Shown here one piece after another: positions 6,161 through 41,012 of a DNA stretch of 64,000 nucleotides. This DNA is from Sulfurovum sp. TSL1 (GTDB lineage: Bacteria; Campylobacterota; Campylobacteria; Campylobacterales; Sulfurovaceae), in NCBI RefSeq assembly GCF_019972135.1, contig NZ_BPFI01000001.1, positions 1,037,106-1,101,105 of the forward strand, read 5' to 3'. Numbering within the stretch: position 1 is the stretch's first letter; each line of letters opens with the position of its first letter. The notes below the pieces were generated by a model that saw only the letters and a list, made by a program, of their open reading frames with translations, had not been told where the DNA came from and ran no database searches. The position numbers and the translations under genes were made by a program.

Positions 6161-6177
6161 TGATTAATTTTTAACCA
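6161..6177 (-). promoter_or_regulatory. Putative nitrogen-regulon operator, site 1 (upstream of nasA)
   Basis: TGATTAATTTTTAACCA, an imperfect copy of the TGATTAA-N3-TTAATCA palindrome seen near other nitrogen genes in the window. It is centred about 76 bp upstream of the nasA ATG and about 50 bp upstream of the start site implied by a TATACT-like -10 box at 6125-6130 on the minus strand. A weaker half site (TGATTAA, 6238-6244) lies on the sirohaem synthase side. Confidence 0.5.
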
Positions 6178-6323
6178 TTTATTTTTTACATAAATATGGG
6201 CCAAAACCTACATTAAAATTATATATTCAAAACATATTGATTAAAAAATATACAATTATATGAATATGTAACCATCTTTTCAGAGATATAATGACATCAA
6301 TTACAGCGAGGATGATCATAAAG

Positions 6324-7586
6324 ATGAAACAGAGACAAACTTTACCCATATTACTGAAAGAACAGCATATTCTTTTGATCGGTGGTGGGAATGTAGCATT
6401 GCAAAAAGCAGAAGTACTGGCAGAGAACCATATCTCTTTTTCTGTGATATCCCAAGAAGTGCACCCTAAGATACAAACATTGTGTTCTGACATACAGATC
6501 AAAAAATTCAAAACGAAAGATATTCAAAAGCATCTCATTGTGATAGATGCTACTGGGAATGAAAAAGTCACACAAAAACTTTTAAAGTATAAACAGAAAC
6601 ACCCTCTTTTACTCAATGTGGTAGATCAACCTAAAGTCTGTGATTTCTACTTTATGGCACTGACAAAAAATGCACCGCTTCAGATAGCCGTGTCAAGTTC
6701 CGGTGCAAGTCCTACTGTGGCTAAATACTTCAGAGATAAGTGTCAGGCACTCATGCCCGATAATATGGAAACATTTTTGGAAGCGTTGCAGTCACAAAGG
6801 GACAAAGGGATCATAAAGATAGAAAAAACGCTTGAAAAGATCGAACAAATGACAGCCAAGGCGTATCTGGTAGGCTGCGGTCTGGGAGATCCTGAACTGC
6901 TTACACTCAAAGCCTATAACATTATCAAAGAGGTGGATGTCGTCCTCTATGATCACCTCATCAGTGACGAGATCATGGCTATCGTACCAAAACGTACAAA
7001 GAAGGTCTTTGTAGGTAAAGAAAAAGGATTTCATACTAAACCCCAAGAAGAGATCAATAAACTCATACGCACATATATTAAAAAAGGGTACTCCGTTGCA
7101 CGATTGAAAAGCGGTGACCCCTTCATCTTTGGCCGTGGTGCCGAAGAGTTACTTTACCTTTCACAAAAAGGTATCAGAACTGAAGTGATACCGGGTATCT
7201 CTTCAGCAGTATCAGGACCGCTGATGGCAAATATCCCTGTCACAGCAAGGGATTACAGTAATGCCTTTACTGTCGTCTCAGCCCACTTAAAAGGGAATGC
7301 CATCAATCTCAACTGGGTACCGATGTTGGAAAACAGAGATCATACGGTCGTCGTATTGATGGGGCTTACACGGATCAAAGAGATCGTACAGCAGGCAAAA
7401 GCATTACATATAGAGTTGGACACACCTTGTGCCATTGTCTCCAATGCAAGCCGGAAGAACCAGACCGTACTTACCACGACACTTGAGAACCTTGAAGAGG
7501 TTTCCCTTGGGGCATCAAGACCTTCTATTTTGGTCTTTGGAGACGTCATACACTATACAAACACACTGAAAGAGAGTCTAACATGA
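6324..7586 (+). CDS. cysG: Sirohaem synthase, CysG-like (dehydrogenase/ferrochelatase plus uroporphyrinogen-III methyltransferase)
   Basis: Makes sirohaem from uroporphyrinogen III. The N-terminal about 150 residues form the Met8/CysG precorrin-2 dehydrogenase-ferrochelatase domain (ILLIGGGNVALQKAEVL nucleotide fold; SSSGASPTVAKYFRDK). From about residue 178 comes the SAM-dependent methyltransferase domain (YLVGCGLGDPELLTLKA; VARLKSGDPFIFGRGAEE; VIPGISSAVSGP), so the order matches full CysG at near-normal length. The start is not certain: ATG at 6324 aligns best with the family and has GCGAGG 12 bp upstream, while ATGs at 6291 and 6312 are also in frame. Its stop overlaps the nitrite reductase ATG by 4 bp, implying translational coupling and supply of sirohaem to that enzyme. 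Confidence 0.92.
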   Translation: MKQRQTLPILLKEQHILLIGGGNVALQKAEVLAENHISFSVISQEVHPKIQTLCSDIQIKKFKTKDIQKHLIVIDATGNEKVTQKLLKYKQKHPLLLNVVDQPKVCDFYFMALTKNAPLQIAVSSSGASPTVAKYFRDKCQALMPDNMETFLEALQSQRDKGIIKIEKTLEKIEQMTAKAYLVGCGLGDPELLTLKAYNIIKEVDVVLYDHLISDEIMAIVPKRTKKVFVGKEKGFHTKPQEEINKLIRTYIKKGYSVARLKSGDPFIFGRGAEELLYLSQKGIRTEVIPGISSAVSGPLMANIPVTARDYSNAFTVVSAHLKGNAINLNWVPMLENRDHTVVVLMGLTRIKEIVQQAKALHIELDTPCAIVSNASRKNQTVLTTTLENLEEVSLGASRPSILVFGDVIHYTNTLKESLT

Positions 7587-9505
7587 GCATTTTAGAAAAA
7601 GCCTCACAGGCAAGAAATACCAAACTCAACAAAGTCGAGACAACCAAAGCACTGAAGATGCCGATGGATGTATATACCAAGTTAGAAGAGATCGCTGCAG
7701 CCGGATATGAAGGTCTAGCCAAAGAGGACAGTGCCTATTTTTTAAAATGTTTTGGACTCTTTGACAAAGGGGAAGACTTTATGCTTCGCGTGCGTATACC
7801 TGCTGGACAATTGAACTATGAACAAGCGTTACGTATCGGTGAAGTGGCGCAAAAGTACGGGAATGACTATATCGATCTGACGACACGTATGCAGGTCGAA
7901 CTGCGTTACTTGCAGATAGCAGACATTGCCAAAGTGTTACAGGAACTCAAAGAGGTCGGTATCTCTACGTTTCAGACCGGTGTGGACAACCCTCGGAATA
8001 TCGTGACCGATCCACTCGACGGCATCGCATACGATAACATCATTGAGACCAAACCCATCATTGATGCACTCCAAACTATCTTTGGAGAAGATCCGGACTG
8101 GATCTCCGTATTGCCACGTAAATTCAATACAGGTATCTTAGGTTCTCTTTCGAACTCCTGTAACATCTTTGGACATGACTGCTGTTTTGTCTTAGCCCAA
8201 AAAGATGGGGTATTTGGATTTAACATCTATTTGGGTGCGTGTGTAGGTGTACAGGCACAAGATGCCAACCTTTTTGTGCAGATAGACGAAGTGGGTCTCT
8301 TCTACAAATCACTTCTGACTGTATTTAAAACGTACGGATACCGTGATAACCGTAACAAAAACCGTTTGGTGTTCCTTATCAATGATGTCGGTATAGAAAA
8401 CCTTGTCAATGCGATCAAAGAAGAGGCCGATGCCCAATTTGCTCCTGCAGGTACGACGATGGTACAGTCTCAAAATATCGCACTGGGGTCCAACAAAGTA
8501 CTGGGACGTAATGGTAAATATAATTACAAGATCATCGTACCCTCTGGTATATTCAGCGGTACAGACATGATCGCTGCGGCCCAGGCAGCAAAAGTATTTG
8601 GTACAGGGGATATAAGATTGACCTATGACCAGAATGTCTATATCGTAAATATTGCAAAAGATCTACTGGAAGATTTTGAGGCGACAGAACTGATCACGAA
8701 CTATGCGAAGTTCAATAATCTCTACTTTAATGACATGATAGCCTGTGCCGGGACAGCTACCTGTAGCTTTGGTGTCATACCGAACAAGCCTGATGCCATA
8801 GAAATGGCACATTTCCTGAGCTCTGAAGTAGCCATTACAAATGCCAATGTACGTATGAACTGGTCTGCCTGTCCTAAAGGATGTGGCGTACATGGTATCG
8901 CTGATATAGGATTTGAAGGGTGTAAAGCCAAAGATGAAGAAGGTAACCGTGTGGACGGTGTACACATTTTCGTCGGTGGTAAGATCACGCGTATGGCAAA
9001 AGAAGCACATACCTTACATAAAGCCCTGCCGTTAACAGAAGCCAAACATCATGTGAAATATCTGCTTAAGACCTATGCAGCGTATAAACAAAGAGGTGAA
9101 ACCTATGAAACTTTTGATGACAGGTTTTTATCGGCAAACTACTCTTTTCAAGCCCTTGGTTTTTACACAAAGATAAACTATATCCTCAATGAAAAACTGG
9201 GATTGGATCTTTGGTTTGAACTTGAGAGTGCACCAAAAACATTTAAAAAAGAAGAGTTTGAGATTTTTGCTTTTGGATTGAAACTCTTTAAACTGCTTAC
9301 GGGTGAAAAACGTTATGAGTCGGTTGAAAACTTTGAACCTGTACTGGCCAAACCCAGAAACATTACAAGAGATGAAGTCACCAAACTCAATCCGAAAGTC
9401 CCCCCAAAGCTCTCAGAGGTCATCTACACTATGACCCATCAAGAAAAAAGAGAACGTGCACAGGTCTTCTCTGAGCTGATCGTAGCACTTAAAGAAGTTC
9501 ACTAG
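7583..9505 (+). CDS. nirA: Ferredoxin-type nitrite reductase (sirohaem, 4Fe-4S), with C-terminal extension
   Basis: Six-electron reduction of nitrite to ammonium in the cytoplasm. The two-fold ferrodoxin-like/NIR-SIR architecture is recognisable, and the four cluster/sirohaem cysteines are present: C388-x5-C394 (CAGTATC) and C430-x3-C434 (CPKGC). The nitrate reductase gene follows immediately and the sirohaem synthase gene precedes it, favouring nitrite over sulfite as substrate. At 640 aa it is about 100 residues longer than typical NirA, the excess lying after the last NIR-SIR domain (roughly residues 535-640) without a motif I recognise. No NirB-like FAD/NADH domain is present, so ferredoxin is the likely donor. 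An assimilatory sulfite reductase is the alternative. Confidence 0.9.
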   Translation: MSILEKASQARNTKLNKVETTKALKMPMDVYTKLEEIAAAGYEGLAKEDSAYFLKCFGLFDKGEDFMLRVRIPAGQLNYEQALRIGEVAQKYGNDYIDLTTRMQVELRYLQIADIAKVLQELKEVGISTFQTGVDNPRNIVTDPLDGIAYDNIIETKPIIDALQTIFGEDPDWISVLPRKFNTGILGSLSNSCNIFGHDCCFVLAQKDGVFGFNIYLGACVGVQAQDANLFVQIDEVGLFYKSLLTVFKTYGYRDNRNKNRLVFLINDVGIENLVNAIKEEADAQFAPAGTTMVQSQNIALGSNKVLGRNGKYNYKIIVPSGIFSGTDMIAAAQAAKVFGTGDIRLTYDQNVYIVNIAKDLLEDFEATELITNYAKFNNLYFNDMIACAGTATCSFGVIPNKPDAIEMAHFLSSEVAITNANVRMNWSACPKGCGVHGIADIGFEGCKAKDEEGNRVDGVHIFVGGKITRMAKEAHTLHKALPLTEAKHHVKYLLKTYAAYKQRGETYETFDDRFLSANYSFQALGFYTKINYILNEKLGLDLWFELESAPKTFKKEEFEIFAFGLKLFKLLTGEKRYESVENFEPVLAKPRNITRDEVTKLNPKVPPKLSEVIYTMTHQEKRERAQVFSELIVALKEVH

Positions 9506-11521
9506 ATGAGTCAAACAGTGTGTGCATACTGTGGTGTGGGATGCAAATTAGAACATATCAATGATACACTTAAAGGCGTAAAGGAGTATCCTTCAAACCA
9601 GGGGATGTCATGTGCCAAAGGTATCTCACAATCAAAAACCGTCCATACCAATAGACTATTGGAGGTACACTGTAGAGATTCTATACAAGAGAGTTACAGA
9701 CCTTCCACTTATGCGGATAGCTTCCAATTGATTGCTGAAAAAATCAAACAGACTGCCAACCCTGACAGAATCGGATTTTATCTTTCCGGGCAAATGCTCA
9801 ATGAAGACTATTATGTAGCCAATAAACTTGCAAAAGGTTTTGTCGGAACGGCCAATTGTGATACCAATTCAAGAACATGCATGGCAAGTGCTGTCGTGGG
9901 ATATAAAAAATCTTTCGGAATGGATTATGTTCCCGTAAGAATGGAAGATATCGAACATTGTAATTTAATGATACTCATTGGTGCCAATACTGCTGAAGCA
10001 CATGTTGTATTGCACAACAAGATCAAAAAAGCACAAAAAAAAGGCTTAAAAGTTGTCGTCATTGATCCAAGATTTACACTGACTGCTAAAAATGCTGACC
10101 TCTACATACCCCTTAAAGTCGGTACAGATATCGATCTTTTGAATCTACTTGCTATAAAATTGATAAAAGACGACCATATTGCGTATGATTTTATAAAGGA
10201 GCACAGTAACAATTTCAATAGCTACAAAGAGAAGCTCTTGGCACTTGATGAAAAAATGCTCTTAGAGCGCACACAACTTTCAGAAGATATTTTTGAAGCT
10301 TTGTACAGACTTTTTAGACAGAGTAAAAATATCATCACTGCATGGACCATGGGGATCAATCAATCCGTTCAGGGGGTAGATAAAAATCTTGCTATCAACA
10401 ATCTACATATACTAACAGGACAGATCAATAAAAAAGGTTCCGGCCCATTATCTCTCACAGGACAACCCAATGCAATGGGTGGAAGAGAAGTAGGAGGTTT
10501 GAGTACAACGTTGGCCGTCCATTTGGACTATAGTGAAGAGAACTGCCAAAAAGTATCTGATTTTTGGCAGAGTGACACGCTACCAAAAGAAAATGGTCTC
10601 ACAGCTTTTGAAATGATCGAGAAAGCAGATAAAAATGAACTGGATATCCTCATTATCTGTCATACGGACCCTGTCTATCATCTTCCTCATCGGACATTTG
10701 TTGAAAAAGCATTCAAGAAGATACCTCTGGTGGTTGAGATCAATGCCTATCAGGGAAGTGAAACTTCCAAATTCGCGCATATCCTCATACCAGCAGTACC
10801 GTTTGGACAAAAAGAAGGCACACAGACAAACCTCGACAGGACCTTGACACGTGTAGTAGCTTTTGAAGATAAACATGGTTTACTTCAAGATTGGGAAGTA
10901 TTCGCCCAAATAGGAAAACATTTGGGTCATAAAAAAGCATTTGGTTTTCAATCGTCCAAAGAGGTCTTTGAAGAGTATCAGGAAATGACAAGATTGAGTT
11001 ATAAAAGTCACCTTGATATCTATAAAGCAAACTATGATGCCCTTGAACATACGCCTTTTATATGGGGAGAAGCACTCTATGATAAAAATGAATTTCTCAC
11101 GCCAGACAATAAAGCAAATCTTTTGTTTGTAGAAAACCAAAATCTATCAGAACAACCATCCCCAGCGTATCCTTTTATCCTGCTCACAGGACGAACAAGA
11201 GATCAATGGCATACAGGCAGTAAAACTCTCTATACAGACAATCTTTTAAAATATAAAGCGTTAGAGTTTGTAGAAATACATCCAAAGGATGCCGCAGCAC
11301 TTGGTATCAATGAGGATGAAACAGTAAAAATAATCTCTGTCAGAGGAGCACTCAAAGCAAAAGTTGTTTTCGCAGATATCAATCCAAAAACCATTTTCAT
11401 TCCTATTTCACATAGAGACATCAATTATCTTACAGATGATAGACTCGATCCACTTTCAAAAGAGCCTGATTATAACCATAGTGCAGTCAGAATAGAAAAA
11501 ATAGAAGAGTGTACATTGTAG
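9506..11521 (+). CDS. narB: Assimilatory nitrate reductase, NarB-type molybdopterin enzyme
   Basis: Cytoplasmic reduction of nitrate to nitrite. The N-terminal [4Fe-4S] motif is C6-x2-C9-x3-C13-x22-C36. The molybdenum-ligand Cys is in TNSRTCMASAVVGYKKSFG (C125). A molydopterin-dinucleotide-binding C-terminal domain includes LLTGRTRDQWHTGSKT and PISHRD. At 671 aa it matches the shorter ferredoxin-dependent NarB rather than the longer Klebsiella-type enzyme with an extra C-terminal Cys cluster, which is absent. The ATG directly follows the nirA stop codon (0-bp gap), so cysG-nirA-narB form one operon. No ferredoxin gene is seen nearby. Known in other systems as narB, nasA or nasC. Confidence 0.93.
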   Translation: MSQTVCAYCGVGCKLEHINDTLKGVKEYPSNQGMSCAKGISQSKTVHTNRLLEVHCRDSIQESYRPSTYADSFQLIAEKIKQTANPDRIGFYLSGQMLNEDYYVANKLAKGFVGTANCDTNSRTCMASAVVGYKKSFGMDYVPVRMEDIEHCNLMILIGANTAEAHVVLHNKIKKAQKKGLKVVVIDPRFTLTAKNADLYIPLKVGTDIDLLNLLAIKLIKDDHIAYDFIKEHSNNFNSYKEKLLALDEKMLLERTQLSEDIFEALYRLFRQSKNIITAWTMGINQSVQGVDKNLAINNLHILTGQINKKGSGPLSLTGQPNAMGGREVGGLSTTLAVHLDYSEENCQKVSDFWQSDTLPKENGLTAFEMIEKADKNELDILIICHTDPVYHLPHRTFVEKAFKKIPLVVEINAYQGSETSKFAHILIPAVPFGQKEGTQTNLDRTLTRVVAFEDKHGLLQDWEVFAQIGKHLGHKKAFGFQSSKEVFEEYQEMTRLSYKSHLDIYKANYDALEHTPFIWGEALYDKNEFLTPDNKANLLFVENQNLSEQPSPAYPFILLTGRTRDQWHTGSKTLYTDNLLKYKALEFVEIHPKDAAALGINEDETVKIISVRGALKAKVVFADINPKTIFIPISHRDINYLTDDRLDPLSKEPDYNHSAVRIEKIEECTL

Positions 11522-11542
11522 TGTATTCAGGTATACACTACA
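11517..11542. terminator. Perfect 10-bp palindrome holding both stop codons of narB and the DUF234 gene
   Basis: Arms TGTAGTGTAT and ATACACTACA flank a 6-nt loop. The narB TAG (11519-11521) lies in one arm and the convergent DUF234 gene's TAG (11538-11540 on the minus strand) in the other. It probably forms an RNA hairpin in either direction. No U-tract follows on either strand, so intrinsic termination would be weak; mRNA 3'-end stabilisation is an alternative. Confidence 0.55.
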
Positions 11543-12386
11543 ACAAGTGCTCCAGATCATTCAGATCAAACAAAAGCAGATCATCATCCTGTGCTTGCAA
11601 GAGTTCATTTGAAAATCCGCTCTTGGAAAAGAGGGCATAGACATCCACTTTAATGCCTGACTCTGCTGCTTTTGCTTTGAGCTTGGTCAATTCGTTCTTG
11701 CATACTTTTCGGTCTTTGTACTTGCACTCTCCCAGGATGACCTTTTTATCCTGACTCACAGCCAAAATATCGAATTCACTGTGAATATTCCAAAAACTTC
11801 CACTATCCACGATACTCTTATGCTCTGCATAATGCTGTATCAAAAGTGCATCACAAAGCTGTTCATAGACCAAAGAACGTAAACGCTCATAGTGTTTTTC
11901 AAAGTTCTTTAAAAATGCATCCCCTTTCCCTGCAGCCAGATCTTTTTTATAATATGTCACAAAGCCGAACCAGAAACGCATAAAGGGCTGTACAAAACGG
12001 AGTTTATCCTGTACACGGTAAGAGCGTTGCTCTTTTTTGAGTTTATGTTTGGGGTGGCTGCGCAACGGAGATTCTCTTGAAGCTTCGACTTTCAGTACAT
12101 TTAAATCGACCAGTTCCCCGACGATCTTCTCTCCCAGGGCCTCACTCACTTTTGCCTTTCTAAGTACGGAATAGAGTTTTCCGTCTCCTCTGGCTACTGC
12201 CATCAGTATTTCACGATAGGGACTTTCCAAAAGGTATGAGGGAGAGACAAGTGCTTGAAATTTTGAGAAATTTTGCACAAAATTTGACTCGACCATAGAA
12301 AAGACATCATCAAAATAGTCTAATTCTATATTTTTGCCAATACCGCCCAAAATAGAGAAATACTCAACAGCCTGCTCAAGTTCCAA
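11538..12386 (-). CDS. DUF234 (PD-(D/E)XK nuclease-like) protein without its usual ATPase domain
   Basis: 282 aa. The last ~100 residues contain HSEFDILAVSQDKKVILGECKYK (around residues 203-222), a PD-(D/E)XK arrangement (D...E-x-K) as found in the C-terminal DUF234 domain of archaeal/bacterial DEXX-box ATPases. The N-terminal half looks like a winged-helix region (YREILMAVARGDGKLYSVLRKAKVSEALGEKIVGELVDLNVL). The N-terminal P-loop ATPase that normally precedes these domains is missing. It sits convergent to narB and divergent from the regulator pair, and no link to nitrogen metabolism is evident. Function unknown; stand-alone DUF234 proteins are known in this phylum. Confidence 0.7.
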   Translation of the reverse strand: MELEQAVEYFSILGGIGKNIELDYFDDVFSMVESNFVQNFSKFQALVSPSYLLESPYREILMAVARGDGKLYSVLRKAKVSEALGEKIVGELVDLNVLKVEASRESPLRSHPKHKLKKEQRSYRVQDKLRFVQPFMRFWFGFVTYYKKDLAAGKGDAFLKNFEKHYERLRSLVYEQLCDALLIQHYAEHKSIVDSGSFWNIHSEFDILAVSQDKKVILGECKYKDRKVCKNELTKLKAKAAESGIKVDVYALFSKSGFSNELLQAQDDDLLLFDLNDLEHLL

Positions 12387-12493
12387 GTAAGAAAAATGTC
12401 GGTAAAACCTTTGAAATGATGCTTTGATGAAATCCCTTTGTCCATAGATTTAATTATTTTAACATATTTTTATTTTAATTTTTGTATTATAAA

Positions 12494-12510
12494 TGATTAA
12501 TTATTAAACA
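12494..12510 (+). promoter_or_regulatory. Putative nitrogen-regulon operator, site 2 (regulator gene promoter)
   Basis: TGATTAATTATTAAACA, matching TGATTAA-N3-TTAATCA except in the last arm. It begins only a few bases after a TATTAT/TATAAA -10-like box at 12485-12493 and 16 bp before the regulator ATG, so it would overlap the transcription start. That position fits autorepression, unlike the activator-like positions before nasA and amtB. Confidence 0.45.
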
Positions 12511-12525
12511 ACACCAAAGAGTATT

Positions 12526-13260
12526 ATGGAAACATTTTTTAGCAAATCAGATAAAATACAACATATCATCAAGAGTTTTACCCTCACCAAAACACTTTTT
12601 GTTTCATCTATCATCATTGGTGAAGCACATACCGGTAAAAAGTCACTTGCACGTTACCTTTTCCCGGATACACCTTTGGTTTCAGGTAACGATCAACAAG
12701 AAGTTGAGGAAGCACTTGAGCAAAATGATGAGCTTATCATCACCAATTTTGAAAAGCTCAGTAATCAGAATTCTCTTGATTTTACCAATAAACGTATTAT
12801 AGCTACAGCAGATTATATGGGTAATCCAGAGCTCATTGATGACCTTTTTGCTTTTATTTATACCATGCCGTCACTCCAAGAGCGTCCTGAAGATATCGAT
12901 TATTTAAAAGAACTCTTCATCAAAGAGGCATGTTCCACTTTAATGCTAGAAGGGAATACATTTGAATCTGAGTACATCCCTCTCAATCTCACGAAAAACA
13001 GTAAAAGTCTCAAAAGGTCTGTCTATATACACCTGATGAAACAGACTATGAACGCGCAGGATATAGAAGAGATACTCTATCACTATCTACTGAAGCACCT
13101 TGATGGTAACGATGCATACAGGGAACATCTTAGTTTATATGAGAGGCCTCTTATAGAAGCGGGGCTTCACAAATTTGGTTCACAACTGCAGCTTTCACAG
13201 GTTTTGGGGATCAACAGAAACACACTTAGAAAGAAGATACATGAGCACAACATCGATTGA
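12526..13260 (+). CDS. Truncated NtrC-like transcriptional regulator with Fis-type HTH, no receiver, no GAFTGA
   Basis: 244 aa. A Walker A-like IIGEAHTGKKSLARYLF (residues about 30-46) aligns with the GExGTGKE loop of sigma-54 activators. KRIIATADY resembles sensor I, and MPSLQERPEDIDYL matches the PPLRERxEDI signature. The last ~36 residues are a clear Fis/NtrC HTH ending in LGINRNTLRKKIHEHNID. Missing are an N-terminal receiver domain, the GAFTGA loop that contacts sigma-54, and the acidic Walker B (ELIITNFEKL instead of LFLDE). It therefore probably regulates sigma-70 promoters. It overlaps the following PAS gene by 20 bp and precedes amtB-glnK, which argues for nitrogen control. The specific target site is inferred, not shown. 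Confidence 0.82.
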   Translation: METFFSKSDKIQHIIKSFTLTKTLFVSSIIIGEAHTGKKSLARYLFPDTPLVSGNDQQEVEEALEQNDELIITNFEKLSNQNSLDFTNKRIIATADYMGNPELIDDLFAFIYTMPSLQERPEDIDYLKELFIKEACSTLMLEGNTFESEYIPLNLTKNSKSLKRSVYIHLMKQTMNAQDIEEILYHYLLKHLDGNDAYREHLSLYERPLIEAGLHKFGSQLQLSQVLGINRNTLRKKIHEHNID

Positions 13261-13942
13261 TTTTAAATCCTTTATAGAATGGGACAACAACCCTTTCATC
13301 CTTTTTAATGATCAGGGGAAAATACTCTATCTAAATAACGCTGCAGAAATTTTATTCGGGTATGTCACCAAAAAGGAACTTTATGATATCGCTTTATCTT
13401 ATGCGCCTCAAACCTTCGGCTATAAGACCACCTCTCTGGGACTCAATTATGACACCTATAACTTTCATGCTATTGCAGTAGGATATGAGAATGAAGAGCA
13501 GATCTCCTTACGTCTATACAACACGCCACGTATAAAACCCACACGTAAAATAGAAAAAGACAAACTTTTCACCACAGATATTAACATCCTGCTTGAAGCC
13601 AACATAGCACTTTTTAGAACAAAGAATTCCAATCCTCTGAAGCTTCTGACCGATCAGGATCTGCCTGCATTTAAAATAGACCAAAATAATTTCTCCAAAC
13701 TATTAAGAAAAACACTGAATGCATTTAGATCTTCAGACTCCATTGATATTTCTCTTACACTACTGGTTGGTCAGCATGTCATGATAGACAATCAAAGAGT
13801 CCCTATCGCTCAACTTTCCATACTTGCCAATGGGCGCTATGCAGATACTGATGATGAGATATGCAGCCATGCAGAGATGAGCCAGATCAAATGTGTTCTT
13901 AAAGAACACTCTATTAAGCTTGAAATTCCTCTGATTCAATAA
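13241..13942 (+). CDS. PAS-domain protein resembling a degenerate NtrB sensor
   Basis: 233 aa from the ATG at 13241 (MSTTSIDFKSFIEW), which overlaps the regulator gene by 20 bp; a further upstream in-frame start lies deep in that gene. Residues about 10-100 form a PAS domain (NPFILFNDQGKILYLNNAAEILFGY) like the NtrB sensor region. The remainder (KIDQNNFSKLLRKTLNAF ... AQLSILANGRYAD) looks like a worn histidine-kinase ATPase domain, but there is no phosphoacceptor His box and no convincing G1/G2 boxes. A catalytically dead partner of the regulator is the likeliest reading. What it senses is unknown; direct interaction with PII, as with NtrB, is a possibility. Confidence 0.7.
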   Translation: MSTTSIDFKSFIEWDNNPFILFNDQGKILYLNNAAEILFGYVTKKELYDIALSYAPQTFGYKTTSLGLNYDTYNFHAIAVGYENEEQISLRLYNTPRIKPTRKIEKDKLFTTDINILLEANIALFRTKNSNPLKLLTDQDLPAFKIDQNNFSKLLRKTLNAFRSSDSIDISLTLLVGQHVMIDNQRVPIAQLSILANGRYADTDDEICSHAEMSQIKCVLKEHSIKLEIPLIQ

Positions 13943-13952
13943 GCAGCCATAT

Positions 13953-13969
13953 TGATTAAAAATTAATCA
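13953..13969 (+). promoter_or_regulatory. Putative nitrogen-regulon operator, site 3 (upstream of first amtB)
   Basis: TGATTAAAAATTAATCA is a perfect 7+7 palindrome with a 3-bp centre, 80 bp upstream of the amtB ATG and about 50 bp before the start site implied by a weak TACTAT -10 box at 14001. It lies 10 bp after the PAS gene stop codon. Confidence 0.6.
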
Positions 13970-14040
13970 ACAGGCTATGGTAAAAAAATATCATTCATGT
14001 TACTATTGTCTTGTAAAAAATTAATTTAAAAGGAAATAGC

Positions 14041-15348
14041 ATGAAACTAAAACTTTCGGCTCTAATGGCAATGTTTTTGCCTATCTTCGCTTTCGCAGAA
14101 GATAAACTGGACACAGGTGATACAGCATGGATGATGGTATCAACAGCATTTGTACTTCTTATGACACCAGCAGGACTGGCACTTTTCTATGGAGGTATGA
14201 CAAGAGCTAAAAACGTACTCAATACCTATGCAATGGTAATGGGTGCATTTGTAGTTGCATTTGTTGTATGGATCATTGCAGGTTATTCTATTGCATTTGG
14301 AACCAATGAGAGCGCAATGCTTCAAAATGTGTTTGGCGGATTCGGTAATGTAATGCTTGACGGTATTAAGTGGACTGATCTTTCCGGTACATATCCTTCT
14401 TATGTATTTATTGCATTCCAAGGGACATTTGCTGCTATTACTGTAGCGATCGCTGCAGGTTCTGTGATCGAACGTATGAAGTTTTCAACTTGGATGGTCG
14501 TTGTAATCCTTTGGGGTCTTCTTGTGTATGCTCCTGTAACACACATGGTATGGGGTGGTGACGGTGCGCTTCTTTTTGATGCTGGTGCCCTTGATTTTGC
14601 CGGTGGTACTGTTGTACACATGAATGGTGGTTTAGCTGGACTTGTACTCGCACTATTGGTTGGTAAAAGAGCTGGTTACCCTAAAGTAGCTATGAAACCA
14701 TATAGTATCCTTCTTACTGCTGTAGGTGCTGCATTATTATGGTTCGGTTGGTATGGATTTAATGGTGGTTCAGCATTCGGTGCAAATGCTATCGCTGGTC
14801 TTGCTGTCATGACAACAACTGTTGCAACTGCTGCAGCTGCTGTAACTTGGATGCTTCTTGAGTGGTTTGTCTTTAAAAAGCCAACACTTCTTGGCATTGC
14901 TTCAGGTATCATTGCCGGTCTGGTTGCGATCACACCTGCTGCTGGTTTTGTAAGCGTTGGTGGAGCATTCATCGTAGGTATCGTTGGGTCTATCATTGCA
15001 TTCTTCGGTGTGGTAACATTGAAGAAAAAACTTGGTTATGATGATTCTCTTGATGCATTTGGTATCCACTTCCTAGCAGGTCTATGGGGTGCTCTTGCAA
15101 CAGGTCTTCTTGCACTTGATGACAAAGATCTTCTCTGGGATGGTCCACTTAAAGAAAGCGGTGACAGAATGGGACAATTCATGGTACAACTTGAGTCAGT
15201 CGTAGTGGTTGGTCTCTTTACACTTATTGGAACTGTGATCGTTTACTATATCGCTTCAGCGGTCACAGGTGGGGCAAGAGTAGATGAAGAAACTGAGTCA
15301 ACTGGTCTTGATGAGATAGTTCACGGTGAAAATGTAGTGAATGCCTAA
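14041..15348 (+). CDS. amtB: Ammonium transporter AmtB, first copy
   Basis: Inner-membrane ammonium channel of the Amt/Rh family. The 435-aa protein starts with a cleavable-type signal peptide (MKLKLSALMAMFLPIFAFAE), as in many bacterial AmtBs, then 11 membrane helices. The pore twin histidines are present in LDFAGGTVVHMNGG (His about 193, with the conserved Asp) and FGIHFLAGLWG (His about 343). FYGGMTRAKNVLNT is the family N-terminal signature. RBS AAAAGGAA precedes the ATG. It is followed after 36 bp by its PII gene. The upstream palindrome and the preceding regulator pair suggest induction under nitrogen limitation. Confidence 0.96.
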   Translation: MKLKLSALMAMFLPIFAFAEDKLDTGDTAWMMVSTAFVLLMTPAGLALFYGGMTRAKNVLNTYAMVMGAFVVAFVVWIIAGYSIAFGTNESAMLQNVFGGFGNVMLDGIKWTDLSGTYPSYVFIAFQGTFAAITVAIAAGSVIERMKFSTWMVVVILWGLLVYAPVTHMVWGGDGALLFDAGALDFAGGTVVHMNGGLAGLVLALLVGKRAGYPKVAMKPYSILLTAVGAALLWFGWYGFNGGSAFGANAIAGLAVMTTTVATAAAAVTWMLLEWFVFKKPTLLGIASGIIAGLVAITPAAGFVSVGGAFIVGIVGSIIAFFGVVTLKKKLGYDDSLDAFGIHFLAGLWGALATGLLALDDKDLLWDGPLKESGDRMGQFMVQLESVVVVGLFTLIGTVIVYYIASAVTGGARVDEETESTGLDEIVHGENVVNA

Positions 15349-15726
<378 letters not shown>

Positions 15727-15778
15727 TCTTTAGAGAAAAGGAAACCATGCCTTACCAACTCTCATTTTTAAGAGGGAA

Positions 15779-15804: not shown

Positions 15805-15821
15805 TGATTAATTTTTAATCA
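15805..15821 (+). promoter_or_regulatory. Putative nitrogen-regulon operator, site 4 (upstream of second amtB)
   Basis: TGATTAATTTTTAATCA, a perfect 7+7 palindrome with a TTT centre, directly after the terminator of the first module and about 126 bp before the second amtB ATG. No unambiguous -10 box was identified between it and the gene. Confidence 0.58.
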
Positions 15822-15938: not shown

Positions 15939-17111
15939 ATGGAAATTAATTACGTCATAGATACCTTCTTCGCACTTTTTGCCATGACTCTTATTATCTT
16001 CATGGTACCGGGTTTTGCCATGCTCGAAGCAGGATTGGTACGAACAAAAAATGTCACATCTGTACTGACGGTCAATGTCATGATCTATGCCATAGCTTCT
16101 CTGGCTTTTTTACTGATAGGGTATGAGCTGGCATTTGGAAGCTGGGATCATCAGGACGGTATGAGCAAATGGGCATTTTTTATGTTTCAAATGGCATTTG
16201 TAGGTAAAGTGGTCAATATTATGAGCGGCGGGGTAAGTGAACGTTCCCGTATACTGCCTTTGGCCATCTTCACCCTTCTTGTCGGGGCATTGATCTACCC
16301 GGTCATTGTAAACCTTACCTGGGGAGCGAACTTTTTAGCCGGCACCGCGTTGGATATCTCATCACTTTCTGACCTGGCAGGTTCAACGGTGATCCACTCT
16401 ACCGGAGGGTGGGCACTGCTTGCAGCTATCCTCATTATGGGACCCAGACGAGGAAGATACAAAGATAATATCGTCCGTGTCATTCCTGCGTCCAACATTC
16501 CTTTGGTCACATTGGGAGCACTTTTACTCTGGATCGGTTGGTTTGGATTTAACGGTGGTTCTGTGGGAACGATCTCATCAAAAGAGAATGCGGATGCCGT
16601 TGCACTGACTATCATGAACACCAATACAGCTGGTCTTGCCGGTGCAATTGCAGGATGGCTACTAACATACTTTAGATATAAAAAATTCGATATCACCGTG
16701 ATACTCAATGGTGCATTGGGTGGGCTTGTCGCCGTCACAGCCGGACCTGACCAATATGATATTCATACCCCTATACTGATCGGTGCGATAGGTGGCGCTT
16801 TGGTTGTCCTGTTCGTACCTATTTTCGATAAATTCAGAATGGATGATCCGGTGGGTGCATTGTCCGTTCACTTGATCAATGGTATCTGGGGTACACTTGC
16901 CGTAGGTATTTTTGTAGCAGATGTAAGCATTTGGACACAATTAAAAGGTATACTTGTTGTAGGTATGATTGTTTTTCCACTTTCATGGATTACAATATAT
17001 AGTATCAACAAGATCTTTGTACTTCGTGCAAATGATGAAGAACAACTTGAGGGAATCGATGCGACAGAGTGTGGTATAGAATCATACCCTGAATTTAAAC
17101 GCAGTATATAA
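15939..17111 (+). CDS. amtB: Ammonium transporter AmtB, second divergent copy
   Basis: 390-aa Amt-family channel, shorter than the first copy and without a signal peptide (starts MEINYVIDTFFALFAMTLII). The conserved pore residues remain: LAGSTVIHSTGG (His about 153) and LSVHLINGIWG (His about 311), plus MLEAGLVRTKNVTSVL near the N-terminus. It is clearly divergent from the first copy, so it is not a recent duplicate, whereas its PII partner is. RBS AAGGAAATCAAT precedes the ATG. It may differ in affinity or in partner PII; this is inference. Confidence 0.94.
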   Translation: MEINYVIDTFFALFAMTLIIFMVPGFAMLEAGLVRTKNVTSVLTVNVMIYAIASLAFLLIGYELAFGSWDHQDGMSKWAFFMFQMAFVGKVVNIMSGGVSERSRILPLAIFTLLVGALIYPVIVNLTWGANFLAGTALDISSLSDLAGSTVIHSTGGWALLAAILIMGPRRGRYKDNIVRVIPASNIPLVTLGALLLWIGWFGFNGGSVGTISSKENADAVALTIMNTNTAGLAGAIAGWLLTYFRYKKFDITVILNGALGGLVAVTAGPDQYDIHTPILIGAIGGALVVLFVPIFDKFRMDDPVGALSVHLINGIWGTLAVGIFVADVSIWTQLKGILVVGMIVFPLSWITIYSINKIFVLRANDEEQLEGIDATECGIESYPEFKRSI

Positions 17112-17119: not shown

Positions 17120-17462
<343 letters not shown>

Positions 17463-17464
<2 letters not shown>

Positions 17465-21157: not shown

Positions 21158-21158
21158 C

Positions 21159-31759: not shown

Positions 31760-31761
31760 GA

Positions 31762-32205: not shown

Positions 32206-32350
32206 TTACTTATTCCTTCTTATGCCATATGTACTTCTAATTTTAACAAACTTTTACTAGACATCTGTTAAAAGTACTATACATCGCGTACTTTAAAGTA
32301 TAGCTTTAGCCTGATGATAGTATTATATATGGTATATAAATTATGTCAAA

Positions 32351-32359
32351 GGGGGGGGG
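32351..32359 (+). repeat. G9 homopolymer overlapping the mlaA Shine-Dalgarno
   Basis: Nine consecutive G residues preceded by AAA and followed by ATCTTTCT-ATG. The tract is the only SD-like sequence for mlaA. A TATTAT -10 candidate at 32321 places it in the 5' leader. Poly-G tracts of 8 or more are classical slippage sites in Campylobacterota. Confidence 0.75.
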
Positions 32360-32367
32360 ATCTTTCT

Positions 32368-33207: not shown

Positions 33208-33226
33208 ATCAAATAAGGTAAAAAAT

Positions 33227-33790: not shown

Positions 33791-33831
33791 GTCATTCTGT
33801 GGCAAAAATCCTTATATTAAGAAGATAATCA

Positions 33832-36321: not shown

Positions 36322-36412
36322 TTTACAATTTACTATGATCCCATAAGAATTAATATCTCATTTTATAAAATATGTTACAATCAAAAAAAATAAAATAATG
36401 GACCGATCATTT

Positions 36413-38362
36413 ATGTTTCAAGAATTCAAAATAGACAATTTAGACCAGTTTCCCAAAGCGTTAGACACCCTTTTAGACAAGCAACGAGAGATGATCGATG
36501 AGATCACGGCAAATGCCGAGACCAGTTATGACAAAGTCCTTAAACCCCTACAAGACCTGGACGAGGAGCTAGGGCTTTTCTTCACACCGCTTTCTCATCT
36601 TAATGCTGTGATGAACTCTGAAGAGACACAAAAAGCGTATGAAGCATCTATCCCTCTACTCTCCAAGTTTAGTTCTGAAATGGCACAGAATGAAGCTCTG
36701 TTTAAAAAGATAGAGGCGATCAAAGCAGATTCAAAAGAAGCGAACAAAGTGCTGGAACATGAAATCAGAGGCTTTGTACTCTCCGGGGTCAATCTTCCCG
36801 CAGATAAGAAAAAACGCATGGAAGAGATCAATCTCAAACTCTCTGAACTCTCTAACCAGTTTTCACAAAATCTGCTTGATGCGACCAACGCCTATGAACT
36901 CATTATCGAAGAGGTAAAAGATGTTGAAGGCATGCCTCAGTCCGACATCGATGCAGCACAAGAAGAGATCGATGGAAGGATCGTATACAAATTCACACTT
37001 CAAATTCCCAGTTATATGGCCTACATGACTTACGGACCTAACCGTGAGCACAGAAAAGAACTCTCCAAAGCCTATGCGACCAGAGCACCTGAAAACGCAG
37101 AGGTCATAGACCAGATCCTCGCACTCAAACATGAAAAGTCACAGCTTCTTGGCTTTAGCTCTTATGCAGAGTATGCATTGGAGACACGCGATGCGAGCCA
37201 TGAAGATGATGTCATCACATTCTTGAATGAACTGGCCGATGCTGCCTTGCCTCAAGCCAAAAACGAACTGGCTGAACTGAAGGCATTTGCACTTCAAACA
37301 GATGGTATAGAAGACTTGGCAGGTTATGATGTAGGCTACTATTCAGAGAAACTGAAAAAAGAAAAGTTTGACTTTGATGATACGATGACCAAACCCTACT
37401 TCAAACAAGAAAAAGTTTTAGAGGGATTATTGTACATTGTCTCAGAACTTTTTGGTGTCACCTTTGAACCTGCGGATGTACCTACCTGGCACGCATGTGT
37501 CAAACCTTTTGACATTTTCGAAGAGGGCAAACTCTCCGGACGTATCTACTTTGACCTTGAAGCGCGTAAAGAGAAACGCGGTGGTGCATGGATGAATGAC
37601 TGGGAGACACACTATGTGGACTCTAAAGGAGAATTACATCTTCCATCCGCTTTCATCGTCTGTAACTTCTCACCAACAACCCCAAAGACGCCCTCTTTAC
37701 TCAGACATGATGATGTAGTGACACTTTTCCATGAAATGGGACATGCCATCCATCACCTTTTTGGAAAATGCAAAGAGCGCTCCGTCTCGGGTATTAACGG
37801 TGTGGCATGGGATGTGGTAGAGTTTCCTTCACAATTTTTGGAGAACTTTGCTTATGAAGCTGCTATCTTAAAACGTTTTGGTTTTCATTATGAAACAGGA
37901 GAGCCTATTTCAAATGAACTGATGTCAAAGATCAAAGAGACCAAAAACTTCCAGGCAGCCCTTGGCATCTTGCGCCAGGTAGAGTTCTCATTGTTTGATT
38001 TTGTGCTGCATCAGGACCTTTACCAGGGTGAGGAAGTACAGAGATTACTCGATGGTATTCGAGAAAAGACCTCTTTGCTCACACCGCCGAGTTATAACAA
38101 ATTCCAACATGGATTTGCCCATATCTTTGCAGGTGGCTATGCTGCAGGATACTACAGCTATAAATGGGCTGAAGTACTCTCTGCGGATGCTTTTTTCTCC
38201 TGTTTGGATAATGAATCAGGATTTAACAAGGAACGTGCCAAAGGGTATAAAGAGTATATACTGGCAAGCGGTGGTGCGATTGAGATGTCTGAACTCTATG
38301 AAGAGTGGCTTGGACGGAAAGCAGATGTTCAAAGTCTGATCAAACTGTATGAAATAGCATAA
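36413..38362 (+). CDS. prlC: M3-family zinc oligopeptidase (oligopeptidase A / PrlC-like)
   Basis: Cytoplasmic peptidase degrading oligopeptides. The zinc site HEMGHAIHHLFG lies at about residue 440, with the downstream Glu of the M3 family in SQFLENFAYE. The N-terminal helical channel half and TPPSYNKFQHGFAHIFAGGYAAGYYSYKWAEVLSADAF near the C-terminus are typical. ATG 36413 (MFQEFKIDNL) seems more likely than 36398, which has no RBS. It lies 91 bp after the RND gene and could be transcribed separately. Confidence 0.93.
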   Translation: MFQEFKIDNLDQFPKALDTLLDKQREMIDEITANAETSYDKVLKPLQDLDEELGLFFTPLSHLNAVMNSEETQKAYEASIPLLSKFSSEMAQNEALFKKIEAIKADSKEANKVLEHEIRGFVLSGVNLPADKKKRMEEINLKLSELSNQFSQNLLDATNAYELIIEEVKDVEGMPQSDIDAAQEEIDGRIVYKFTLQIPSYMAYMTYGPNREHRKELSKAYATRAPENAEVIDQILALKHEKSQLLGFSSYAEYALETRDASHEDDVITFLNELADAALPQAKNELAELKAFALQTDGIEDLAGYDVGYYSEKLKKEKFDFDDTMTKPYFKQEKVLEGLLYIVSELFGVTFEPADVPTWHACVKPFDIFEEGKLSGRIYFDLEARKEKRGGAWMNDWETHYVDSKGELHLPSAFIVCNFSPTTPKTPSLLRHDDVVTLFHEMGHAIHHLFGKCKERSVSGINGVAWDVVEFPSQFLENFAYEAAILKRFGFHYETGEPISNELMSKIKETKNFQAALGILRQVEFSLFDFVLHQDLYQGEEVQRLLDGIREKTSLLTPPSYNKFQHGFAHIFAGGYAAGYYSYKWAEVLSADAFFSCLDNESGFNKERAKGYKEYILASGGAIEMSELYEEWLGRKADVQSLIKLYEIA

Positions 38363-38370
38363 TGATCTTC

Positions 38371-38404
38371 TCTCACTCTTAGGCCAGATCTCCGAAGAGT
38401 GAGA
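38371..38404 (+). promoter_or_regulatory. Perfect 10-bp inverted repeat between prlC and the small membrane protein gene
   Basis: TCTCACTCTT and AAGAGTGAGA flank a 14-nt loop. It is followed by GGATAGAAAGGAG rather than a T-run, and ends 8 bp before the Shine-Dalgarno of the next gene. It could be a weak terminator for prlC or a leader hairpin affecting the downstream gene. Confidence 0.5.
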
Positions 38405-38423
38405 GGATAGAAAGGAGTCTTTC

Positions 38424-38939
38424 GTGAGCGAATACCGTTCTCTTGCACTAACCGTGATCGCTATCTTTACCATCACTTTAGTGGCTGCCTACTTCAGTCC
38501 CTCATTCGCAGAACAAAAAACCTACCTGGAACTTTTCATCCTTTTTGGAAGCCTGCTTTTCATTTTTGCCGTGGTAGTGATCTTTGCAACGCTGGGATTT
38601 CACTCTTTTGCACTCTTTTTGAGTCTCTTTCTTGCTGCAGTGATCGCAATGTACGGGGTATTGGGGGCCTTGCTTATCACGGCTGTCACCTATTTTCTGT
38701 GGGGTTCCATTTTCGCGATGGAACTACTGTTGTTCTATAATGGCAGTGAAAGTGCCAAAGAGTGGTTCCTGTCCCGGTATGATTTCAAAACATTCAAGAT
38801 GGAATATGTTGCTTTTTATCCGCTGATGGGAATGCTCTATATTTTGTTGGAGTTTATACCCTATCTCTTTTCTAAAGAGAAGTTGTTGAAGTTCACCCCT
38901 TCAAAAGTTTTGAAGGAGATGGAGATGTTACTGGAGTAG
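38424..38939 (+). CDS. Conserved-looking four-to-five-helix membrane protein, function unknown
   Basis: 171 aa starting at GTG with a strong AAAGGAG RBS. About four hydrophobic helices (ALTVIAIFTITLVAAYF; LFILFGSLLFIFAVVVIFATLGF; SFALFLSLFLAAVIAMYGVLGALLITAVTYFLW; FYPLMGMLYILLEFIPYLF) and a charged C-terminus ending VLKEMEMLLE. No catalytic motif is recognised. It converges with argG, six bases apart. Confidence 0.8.
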   Translation: MSEYRSLALTVIAIFTITLVAAYFSPSFAEQKTYLELFILFGSLLFIFAVVVIFATLGFHSFALFLSLFLAAVIAMYGVLGALLITAVTYFLWGSIFAMELLLFYNGSESAKEWFLSRYDFKTFKMEYVAFYPLMGMLYILLEFIPYLFSKEKLLKFTPSKVLKEMEMLLE

Positions 38940-38945
38940 TTTGAT

Positions 38946-40217
38946 CTACTCTTCAGTATTCTTGATGAGAGAAGCGATACGTTCAGGCTGTTTTTTACCT
39001 TCAATGATGAATCTCAATGCATTCAGACGGATAAAGCCTTCTGCATCCGCCTGGTTATAGACTTCATCCTCTTCAAATGTAGAGTGTGCTTCTGAATAGA
39101 GTGATTCATCTGAACTTCTACCCACTACGATCACATTCCCTTTGTAAAGTTTGAGTTTTACTTCACCGTTGACTGTCTCTTGTGTTGTATCGATCGCTGC
39201 TTGCAACATCTTACGCTCCGGTGACCACCAGTATCCGTTATAGATCAGTTTTGCATACTTAGGCATAAGCTCATCTTTAAGGTGTGCTTCTTCTCTATCC
39301 AGTGTGATAGATTCGATCGCTCTGTGTGCTTTGAGCATGATCGTACCACCCGGCGTCTCATAGCATCCGCGTGCTTTCATCCCTACATAACGGTTCTCTA
39401 CGATATCGATACGTCCGATACCATGATTGTTGCCATAGTCATTCAGTGTTTTAAGAAGTGTTGCAGGGCTCATTGTTTCACCGTTGATCGCTATCGGGTC
39501 ACCTTTTTTATACGTAATGGTGATATACTCCGCCTCATCCGGAGCCTCTTCAGGAGAATTTGTCCATAGCCACATATCCTCTTCAGGTTCAGCTGCAGGA
39601 TTTTCAAGGTGAAGCCCTTCATATGAGATATGAAGCAGGTTTGCGTCCATAGAGTATGGGCTTGCTTTAGGGTTACCGTGCTCATCCATATGTTTTTTAG
39701 AGATCTCTATACCGTGTTCCTTTGCATAAGCAAGAAGCTTCTCACGTGAATTGAGGTCCCACTCTCTCCACGGTGCGATCACTGCGATATCCGGATTAAG
39801 ACCCAGATAACCAAGCTCGAAACGTACCTGGTCATTTCCTTTACCCGTTGCCCCGTGACTTACCGCATCAGCGCCGGTCTGTTGTGCGATCTCGATCTGC
39901 TTTTTAGCAATAAGCGGTCTTGCAATAGATGTTCCTAGCAGGTACTCACCCTCATAGATGGCATTGGCTCTGAACATAGGAAAGACAAAATCTTTTACAA
40001 ACTCTTCTCTAAGATCCAGAATAAAAATATTCTCAGGCTTGATACCCATATCCAATGCTTTCTGACGTGCAGGTTCTACCTCTTCACCCTGACCAAGATC
40101 AGCCGTGAAAGTCACTACTTCACACTCATACTCGTCTTGGAGCCATTTTAAGATAATACTCGTATCCAGTCCACCAGAATACGCCAATACTGCTTTTTTA
40201 ATTTTTCTTTTTGCCAT
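38946..40217 (-). CDS. argG: Argininosuccinate synthase
   Basis: 423-aa enzyme joining citrulline and aspartate in arginine synthesis. N-terminal P-loop-like [19 protein letters not shown], then [26 protein letters not shown] and the C-terminal [34 protein letters not shown]. Full length, apparently monocistronic; the CZB-like gene lies 86 bp upstream in the same direction. Confidence 0.97.
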
Positions 40218-40303
40218 GCTATAAGCCTTTAATTAATATTGTTGCAATTTTAGCGTAAATTTAGTTACGGATGGTTTTATTATTCTATGAATTTGAAGAC
40301 AAT

Positions 40304-40867
40304 CTATTCACTGACATAGGCTCCTCTTGCTCCACTCACAGAATTTTTAGACTTGTCTTTTTTACTTTTTTCAACCATTTTTAGGTTCATTTCATACTCT
40401 TTGGCAACCATATAACTGCCAAATGTGTCAAATTCATCCTCTCCTTTTGCATTGAGTTGTTTTTCAAGAAGTCTAAGATGTTGCTTCATTTTATCGCTTA
40501 AAGTGATGATCTCCTGGTAATGTACGGCAGATATTTTGATCGCTCCGTCACTTAACGGTTTTTTTCTACCAAATAAACTACTTTTATGCTTTGAGACACA
40601 GACTTCATAAATCTGCATAAAATGGTTATGTATGCCTTTCCATAATGCTTCGATTTCATATAAAGTATCCACACAGGTGCTATCCCTGAACAGCATGGCC
40701 TCCTGCTCCAGCCACTTTCCGAAATCAATGTCAGACATATTCAACTCAATGTCTTGTTTGTTTGTATCCAAAAGTCCCGCAGATAATAATTTTATCATGC
40801 CTACCCATCTGGTATGTTCTACTCTTGCTTGATGAAGATGATGTAGATATGTCTCTTTATTTGTCAT
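40304..40867 (-). CDS. CZB-like (chemoreceptor zinc-binding-type) domain protein
   Basis: 187 aa, soluble, no signal or membrane helix. Residues about 10-95 resemble the CZB domain: ARVEHTRWVGMIKLLSAGL, then DIDFGKWLEQEA where the usual zinc-ligand Cys of CxFGKW is Asp, and IEALWKGIHNHFMQIYEV with His residues. The remainder is helical and highly charged and contains no kinase, cyclase or methyl-accepting module. CZB domains bind zinc and sense hypochlorous acid or zinc in chemoreceptors and cyclases. Upstream lie a structured leader (40890-40935) and a nitrogen-type operator (40996). The biological role is unknown. Confidence 0.6.
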   Translation of the reverse strand: MTNKETYLHHLHQARVEHTRWVGMIKLLSAGLLDTNKQDIELNMSDIDFGKWLEQEAMLFRDSTCVDTLYEIEALWKGIHNHFMQIYEVCVSKHKSSLFGRKKPLSDGAIKISAVHYQEIITLSDKMKQHLRLLEKQLNAKGEDEFDTFGSYMVAKEYEMNLKMVEKSKKDKSKNSVSGARGAYVSE

Positions 40868-40889
40868 TTAGTATTCCTTGTCAATAGTA

Positions 40890-40935
40890 TCACTATATGA
40901 CATGACACAGGTCACATCCCAATGCTATATAGTGA
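40890..40935 (-). promoter_or_regulatory. Nested inverted repeats in the leader of the CZB-like gene
   Basis: Outer arms TCACTATAT (40890-40898) and ATATAGTGA (40927-40935) are perfectly complementary. Inside lies TGAC-ACAG-GTCA (40903-40914). A TAAAAT -10 candidate at 40959-40964 on the minus strand would put the whole structure in the 5' leader, ending 23 bp from the ATG. No known riboswitch class was recognised. A separate ATAGT-GAT-ACTAT repeat overlaps its start-proximal side. Confidence 0.45.
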
Positions 40936-40995
40936 TTTTAATAATTTCCTTCAGAAATATTTTATCCCAAAGGAATACTTATATTTTTTATAACT

Positions 40996-41012
40996 TGATT
41001 AATTTTTAACCA
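40996..41012 (-). promoter_or_regulatory. Putative nitrogen-regulon operator, site 5 (upstream of CZB-like gene)
   Basis: TGATTAATTTTTAACCA, identical over all 17 bases to site 1 before nasA. It is centred about 137 bp upstream of the CZB-like ATG and about 50 bp before the start implied by the TAAAAT box at 40959-40964. This is the only copy I found outside the nitrogen island. Confidence 0.5.

Follow-up and report, generated by a model that had tools for sequence, protein, structure and literature searches.

Which protein reads the palindrome TGATTAA-N3-TTAATCA that recurs between the genes of Sulfurovum sp. TSL1, and what does it control? The palindrome was noticed in a stretch of 64,000 nucleotides (the window; contig NZ_BPFI01000001.1, positions 1,037,106 to 1,101,105), where it is found close to genes for nitrate and ammonium transport and to the gene at 12526 for a small regulator, here called REG (Table 1). 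We suggest that this signal at nitrogen-uptake genes is very probably read by REG, a cut-down relative of NtrC that acts without sigma54. The arrangement of regulator and operator recurs in many environmental Campylobacterota.

Near-exact copies of the palindrome (at most one mismatch) are far more frequent than expected. The window contains five, against a mean of 0.05 in dinucleotide shuffles, and none of 100 shuffles reached this count. All five are located where the initial annotation had placed them, at 6161, 12494, 13953, 15805 and 40996; the two before the amtB genes are indeed perfect, and with the likely gene starts all five fall between genes. An open reading frame opened by TTG from 6204 would cover the site at 6161; it was set aside for the narK start MAGFK at 6093, very probably the correct one. 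If up to three mismatches are allowed there is no excess in the window (11 found, 9.86 expected), and therefore the signal resides in the near-exact copies only.

The genome-wide scan suggested in the initial annotation gives ten places with at most one mismatch in 2.35 Mb, four exact and six with one mismatch, which is far above chance. All ten are intergenic with respect to the genes taken as real; a frame of 75 amino acids over the site at 4099, antisense to the start of a porin gene, is taken as spurious. Three sites outside the window precede porin-like genes (4099, 5580 and 1207421), one at 513026 has a UPF0014/FetB-like gene on one side and an ABC permease gene on the other, and one on another contig (C4:105784) precedes the gene of an NMT1-type binding protein. 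Places with two mismatches, a mixture of matches within genes and plausible sites (at a second NarK gene, NarK2, and in the DNA separating an NrtA-like gene from a second NasA-like gene), were excluded from the regulon count. A wider pattern, TGWWWAANNNTTWWWCA, was rejected; it has 12 forward and 5 control places in this genome and therefore adds noise. In a sample of 150 genomes from the family, exact copies occur in 80, with 192 forward places against 2 for the backward control, and 141 of the 192 fall in 53 same-genus rows. An origin of the motif by chance or AT bias is thus rejected by the shuffles, the backward control and the genome counts.

What do the sites precede in relatives? The comparison of upstream regions, also suggested initially, covered 37 loci around exact sites, more than about 4 kb from REG and taken from the family-sample matches listed; three additional stretches, chosen for other reasons, are outside this count. 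Genes were labelled by BLAST against proteins of the window and the genome. In 30 of the 37 loci the exact site precedes a nitrogen or porin-like gene: narK-nirA/cysG in 12, a porin-like gene in eight, glnA in five (one label confirmed with Pfam, the other four by eye from similar N-termini), amtB in four and an NrtA/FetB-like gene in one. Together with the window targets narK, cysG-nirA-nasA and amtB-glnK, this bears out the proposed nitrogen regulon. By comparison, 55 NtrC-type-bearing loci from other phyla and classes (932,007 bases) contain three TGATTAA-type matches at up to two mismatches, without pattern.

The arrangement of the sites is also conserved. Eight of the 12 narK-nirA regions carry two sites of at most one mismatch, and in seven such regions the paired sites are 76–79 bp apart, one for each of the divergent genes. 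In a close relative (G122, locus L279) the two sites are 76 bp apart, upstream of narK by 67 bp and of cysG by 69 bp, and a site with one mismatch stands where the window has the weaker site at 6238. This weaker site, the sixth of the window, is absent from the initial list of five. The initial annotation had assigned the site at 6161 to nasA; it is instead the narK operator on the minus strand, and the nas cluster has a site of its own, the weaker one. Of 30 loci from the same genus, with this genome among them, 25 have a site of at most two mismatches just upstream of the regulator gene and 28 have one on the amtB side, where the downstream gene is unannotated in these short loci. The site of the gene at 40304 is kept, with one or two mismatches, before four of four orthologues of at least 41% identity (L281–L284). 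Among 15 distant relatives (at most 34% identity) three have a two-mismatch site about 64–95 bp upstream, and the other 12 have none at up to three mismatches. This gene had been called CZB-like, a label dropped after a Pfam search gave no CZB match.

That REG reads the motif, as proposed initially, is likely from sequence evidence, one line of which is co-occurrence. REG is found in 137 of the 150 family genomes and in 44 of 160 genomes from the phylum, across ten families. GlnK was searched in 21 REG-bearing and 33 REG-less genomes and is present in 14 of the latter; at amtB/glnK starts picked by hand, we then scored at most 200 bp of upstream DNA and the first 30 bp inside, some loci being shorter. 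A site of at most two mismatches is found in 13 of 20 REG-bearing versus 0 of 13 REG-less genomes (Fisher p 0.00016). The corresponding counts are 11/20 and 0/13 for at most one mismatch, and 15/20 and 2/13 for at most three. Left out were G155, whose upstream region is off the contig, and G132, with which the REG-less count becomes 1/14.

Another line is covariation: the letters of the half-site appear to change with the recognition helix of REG, with the exception of one family (f4). At good sites near REG or amtB, REG proteins with an NRNT helix are paired with half-sites that read TGATTAA or differ from it in one letter, and those with an NR[VIA]T helix are paired with TGTATAA-like half-sites (L051, L052, L177, L178, L183); L176 (NRIT) has a weak mixed site only. 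The covariation is a table by clade, and the many REG loci with no nearby site under the strict filter count neither for nor against it.

REG itself is best read as derived from NtrC, without the receiver domain and the GAFTGA sigma54 loop. In Pfam, HTH_8 is above the cutoff, HTH_50 is below it and nothing else was found, while the best NCBIfam match, below cutoff, is to positions 390–462 of NtrC TIGR01818 (the C-terminal 73). Foldseek matches of the AlphaFold2 model (pLDDT 90.6) are NtrX, ZraR, NtrC1 and PspF, with RuvB AAA+ domains interspersed. The VIA structure comparison also places NtrC4 among the nearest; against NtrC1 and NtrC4 it gives Z 15.1 over 171–172 residues at 2.5–2.6 Å. Other AAA+ domains reach Z 12.7–13.6, and therefore the fold alone is not decisive. 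No receiver domain was matched in Pfam or aligned, and the protein begins at the AAA+ remnant. GAFTGA is missing from all 19 REG rows, with about 40 consecutive central residues that include it having no REG counterpart in the alignment. Among 14 full-length comparison proteins, eight have GAFTGA and six do not, all six on contigs with alphaproteobacterial titles. The strict Walker A motif G-x4-GK-[ST] is found in none of the 19 rows; GK is kept and the S/T place is mostly K or R. Over INRNTLRKK, REG has the same recognition helix as full-length receiver-AAA-Fis proteins on contigs titled Geobacter and Pelobacter (three aligned). The closest named relatives of REG are mostly Sulfurovum metagenome-assembled genomes (MAGs). 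REG as a Crp/Fnr protein was rejected, as Pfam finds in it neither a cyclic-nucleotide-type sensor domain nor the Crp helix-turn-helix (HTH).

How could such a protein act at a promoter? A sigma54 mechanism was rejected. The sigma54 DNA-binding domain has no match in this genome, the best PF00158 match is 34.6 bits, and no sigma54 site (TGGC[AC]-N6-8-TTGC) is found in 63 site regions; the loose pattern GG-N10-GC has 12 matches there, most of them where narK has its ribosome site and start codon. Among the 150 family genomes, 22 show a sigma54 match (21 over cutoff), and 116 of the 137 REG-bearing genomes have none, many of them incomplete MAGs. The operators are instead followed by a -10 box at nearly constant distance. 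We oriented 64 sites by hand and kept 63 (L211 was out of register). Over these, a TATAAT-like hexamer (at least 5/6) at offsets 31–34 after the operator gives 48 matches, starting at 32 in 25 and at 33 in 23. In 500 mononucleotide shuffles the mean was 7.0 and the maximum 16, a control that overstates independence because the promoter sequences are related. The spacing is common to different genes, namely amtB, glnA, narK, nirA and porins. In the window, TATACT begins at the 32nd base after the narK site, TATAAT at the 33rd after the cysG site at 6238 and TAAAAT at the 32nd after the site of the 40304 gene. The operator centre would be near -52 if transcription starts 6–7 nt past the -10 box. 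The initial placing of sites some 50 bp before a start site agrees with this spacing for narK and the 40304 gene; at amtB1 the box is weak.

At the regulator gene the site at 12494 follows a -10-like stretch, 15 bp before the ATG, which suggests that REG may repress itself. Truncated Fis-type proteins can act as repressors, and with its own-gene site in this position REG could be a pure repressor, the targets being off in nitrogen-replete cells and never activated. This is unlikely, however, since the target operators lie upstream of the -10 box at near-constant spacing and a TTGACA-like -35 is present in only 7 of the 63 sites, as is usual for activated promoters. Activation of the targets combined with self-repression, as the initial annotation had it, therefore gives the likeliest signs, judged from the position of the sites.

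The protein encoded next to REG appears, from its model, to be a remnant of NtrB. Its PAS match is weak (Pfam E 0.00091, below cutoff, and below cutoffs also in NCBIfam), and the model (pLDDT 85.5, pTM 0.59) is consistent with PAS. Foldseek lists many histidine kinase CA domains, including the NtrB catalytic domain 1r62 (E 6e-6, TMt 0.66), and an entry of the NifL-NifA complex at rank 49. Neither Pfam nor NCBIfam matches a HATPase family profile or DHp to this protein, and the model has no long helical hairpin between its PAS and HATPase-like parts. By analogy, it may act by contact like NifL.

The operator, its targets, the protein architecture, the co-distribution, the spacing and the covariation are read from sequence, whereas the binding, the sign of regulation and the route of the signal are inferred. 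We consider it highly probable that the palindrome is the operator of REG, with sigma70 activation of nitrogen genes, self-repression and a relay from GlnK through the partner. REG would bind the 17-bp palindrome as a dimer, with the operator centre at about -52 and a constant distance to the sigma70 -10 box downstream, and would activate narK, cysG-nirA-nasA, amtB-glnK, nitrate-ABC and porin genes, as well as glnA in relatives. Its own gene would be repressed via 12494, over the start region. Nitrogen status would probably pass from GlnK to the PAS/ATPase-like partner and then to REG by protein contact, as in GlnK-NifL-NifA, without phosphotransfer. More broadly, this could be a phylum-wide switch of environmental Campylobacterota: NtrB and NtrC would both have lost the parts needed for phosphorelay and sigma54, and GlnK, the PAS/pseudo-ATPase protein and REG would work by contact on sigma70 promoters, through the 17-bp operator at a set distance from the -10 box and in two dialects set by one helix residue, a generalisation that has about an even chance of being right.

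Several observations weigh against this reading. Seven of the 37 loci in relatives lack a nitrogen or porin gene beside the site, and glnA of the own genome has no upstream site, though some relatives have one. The FetB-like target does not fit the -10 spacing, amtB1 fits it weakly (a 4/6 box, TACTAT), and amtB2 has no -10 box at the usual spacing, its best being TATCAT, which at offset 22 is closer to the operator than in other sites by roughly a turn of the helix. Family f4 combines a V-type helix and TLTKK for TLRKK with perfect TGATTAA sites. Exact copies are found in only 76 of the 137 REG-bearing family genomes and are missing from G102, G130, G136 and G143, which are of the same genus and carry REG. 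They are also found in four of the 13 REG-less family genomes (G132, G149, G032 and G039), in G132 before amtB (amtB2). Both G132 contigs stop 77 bp short of amtB1, on the side where REG would be expected, and in G032 and G039 the exact sites are by no nitrogen gene.

These four REG-less genomes, the site at the REG gene itself and the outer TTGAT/ATCAA letters, which resemble Fnr half-sites, could indicate that another factor (Crp/Fnr, LysR or else) reads the palindrome and that REG is merely one target. However, the half-site spacing differs from that of Fnr, the 17-bp dyad geometry is typical of NtrC-type HTHs, the half-site letters track the recognition helix of REG, and none of the 13 scored REG-less genomes (G132 dropped) has a site of at most two mismatches before amtB/glnK. 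Another reader is thus very improbable, and we keep REG in this role.

Finally, the partner gene adjoins REG in all 20 family loci fetched for that check and in nine of the 20 from other families (the REG place in L174 is from the phylum search). The other 11 have no PAS gene beside REG, and therefore a relay through PAS cannot be universal. Nine of them have REG by a fabD-like gene and not by amtB (f7, part of f8, f10 and f11), and in two (L177 and L178, f6) by amtB-glnK. The fabD-linked loci are L179–L182 and L184–L188, several of them after an FKBP-type isomerase-like gene (names by eye). That amtB keeps its operator in several genomes with fabD-linked REG, and that the Walker A G and K are invariant across the 19 rows, is what one would expect if the partner were not the signal input and REG were governed by its AAA+ remnant (through a nucleotide or metabolite) or by its level alone. 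This is possible, if somewhat doubtful in view of the adjacency in all family loci and in nine of the others, and we prefer the relay through the partner.

Table 1. Putative operators and genes of the window (positions in the 64,000-nucleotide stretch; distances to likely gene starts).
Feature	Position	Strand	Remarks
narK operator, 1 mismatch	6161..6177	-	67 bp upstream of likely narK start 6093
narK, nitrate/nitrite MFS transporter	4813..6093	-	Pfam MFS_1 above cutoff; TIGR00886 E 9.8e-68, below cutoff
Weaker operator for cysG-nirA-nasA, TGATTAAAAAATATACA, 3 mismatches	6238..6254	+	69 bp before likely cysG start 6324
cysG-like sirohaem synthase	6324..7586	+	Pfam TP_methylase, Sirohm_synth_M
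nirA-type nitrite reductase	7583..9505	+	Pfam NIR_SIR; NF007125 E 1.8e-103, below cutoff
nasA-type molybdopterin oxidoreductase, probable assimilatory nitrate reductase	9506..11521	+	Pfam Molybdopterin E 1e-43
Operator at regulator gene, 1 mismatch	12494..12510	+	Right after TATTATAA -10-like stretch; regulator ATG 15 bp on
REG regulator, 244 amino acids	12526..13260	+	Shrunken AAA+ and Fis HTH; no receiver, no GAFTGA
Partner, 233 amino acids, probable NtrB remnant	13241..13942	+	Putative PAS and degenerate HATPase-like parts, no DHp
amtB1 operator, perfect	13953..13969	+	71 bp upstream of amtB1
amtB1 ammonium transporter	14041..15348	+	TIGR00836 above cutoff
glnK, PII protein	15385..15726	+	NF008111 E 8e-48, below cutoff
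amtB2 operator, perfect	15805..15821	+	117 bp upstream of amtB2
amtB2 ammonium transporter	15939..17111	+	TIGR03644 E 1.5e-116; TIGR00836 289.6 bits vs 343.3; both below cutoff
Second glnK-like gene	17123..17464	+	Translation resembles first PII protein by eye
Operator of 40304 gene, 1 mismatch	40996..41012	-	128 bp upstream of gene
40304 gene, 187 amino acids	40304..40867	-	No match over cutoff in Pfam, none in NCBIfam

Genes for OprD/Alginate_exp-like porins are the second most frequent target among the fetched loci (porin-site loci L006, L007, L256, L258, L260, L263, L266, L268, L273 and L274). Their Pfam matches are weak, with OprD just above cutoff in one and OprD or Alginate_exp below cutoff in two; a possible role of these porins is to pass nitrogen compounds across the outer membrane. 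Genes for proteins of 195, 204 and 107 amino acids at extra sites have no Pfam match. In one locus (L249, 1–130) two sites stand at the end of the contig, past the 3' end of nifU, and are possibly linked to off-contig nitrogen fixation genes. The own-genome glnA (L220, C2) is near genes that resemble, by eye, an SbtA-type bicarbonate transporter and a small PII-like partner. The C-terminal stretch of the nirA-type protein (about 557–639) has weak matches to Ser/Thr protein kinases, and near its gene, at 2929–4572, a gene encodes a protein of 547 amino acids in which, by eye, a PP2C-type phosphatase seems to be joined to a kinase.

The literature searched appears to contain no description of nitrogen control in Campylobacterota. 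Among the matches listed (titles and abstract starts, with few subscription journals covered) no paper deals with this regulator or motif, and among those listed for the motif letters none is relevant by title. A regulon study of Proteobacteria skipped the epsilonproteobacteria, which have no orthologues of its regulators, NtrC included (PMC5343134), and the genome paper of Arcobacter butzleri remarks that NtrC/NtrB and RpoN are missing (PMC2147049). If our reading is true, a nitrogen regulon and its operator become defined for these common oxidisers of sulfur and hydrogen, and an NtrC-type pair has outlived the loss of sigma54 and phosphotransfer. The question of how Campylobacterota sense nitrogen thereby becomes directly testable.

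The NtrC site has the consensus TGCACCA-N3-TGGTGCA, a 7-3-7 dyad of 17 bp. The proposed REG operator is the same 7-3-7, 17-bp dyad, in which the outer TG...CA and inner A/T are unchanged. Like NtrC, REG has a Fis-type HTH, its helix being shared with the Geobacter and Pelobacter receiver-AAA-Fis proteins, and its predicted targets are likewise nitrogen genes (amtB, glnK and nas genes; glnA in relatives). It differs from NtrC in the missing receiver and GAFTGA, the degenerate Walker A, the AT-rich operator and the sigma70-type promoters of its targets, in a genome with no sigma54 match. REG is thus not a canonical NtrC, of which it retains the Fis HTH and the fold of the central domain. The initial annotation had regarded the motif as unrelated to NtrC and as a new operator class; because the dyad geometry and the Fis HTH are NtrC-like, it is better read as a diverged NtrC-type operator that goes with a shrunken NtrC-type protein.

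Two described systems come close. In NifL-NifA-GlnK (PMC9866876) an enhancer-type activator has a PAS and ATPase-like partner and a PII input, as we propose here; however, NifA is a sigma54 activator, and NifL carries an H domain besides its two PAS domains, unlike the system here. The NtrC proteins of Rhodobacter capsulatus and Caulobacter lack GAFTGA and are reported to act with sigma70 in nitrogen control (PMC10274813). REG shares with them the loss of the sigma54 loop and the sigma70 promoters. Those proteins are response regulators in which aspartyl phosphorylation matters, whereas REG has no receiver and, in its family, adjoins a pseudo-sensor without DHp. By analogy, REG would work like the GAFTGA-less NtrC of Rhodobacter capsulatus, in a further reduced form.

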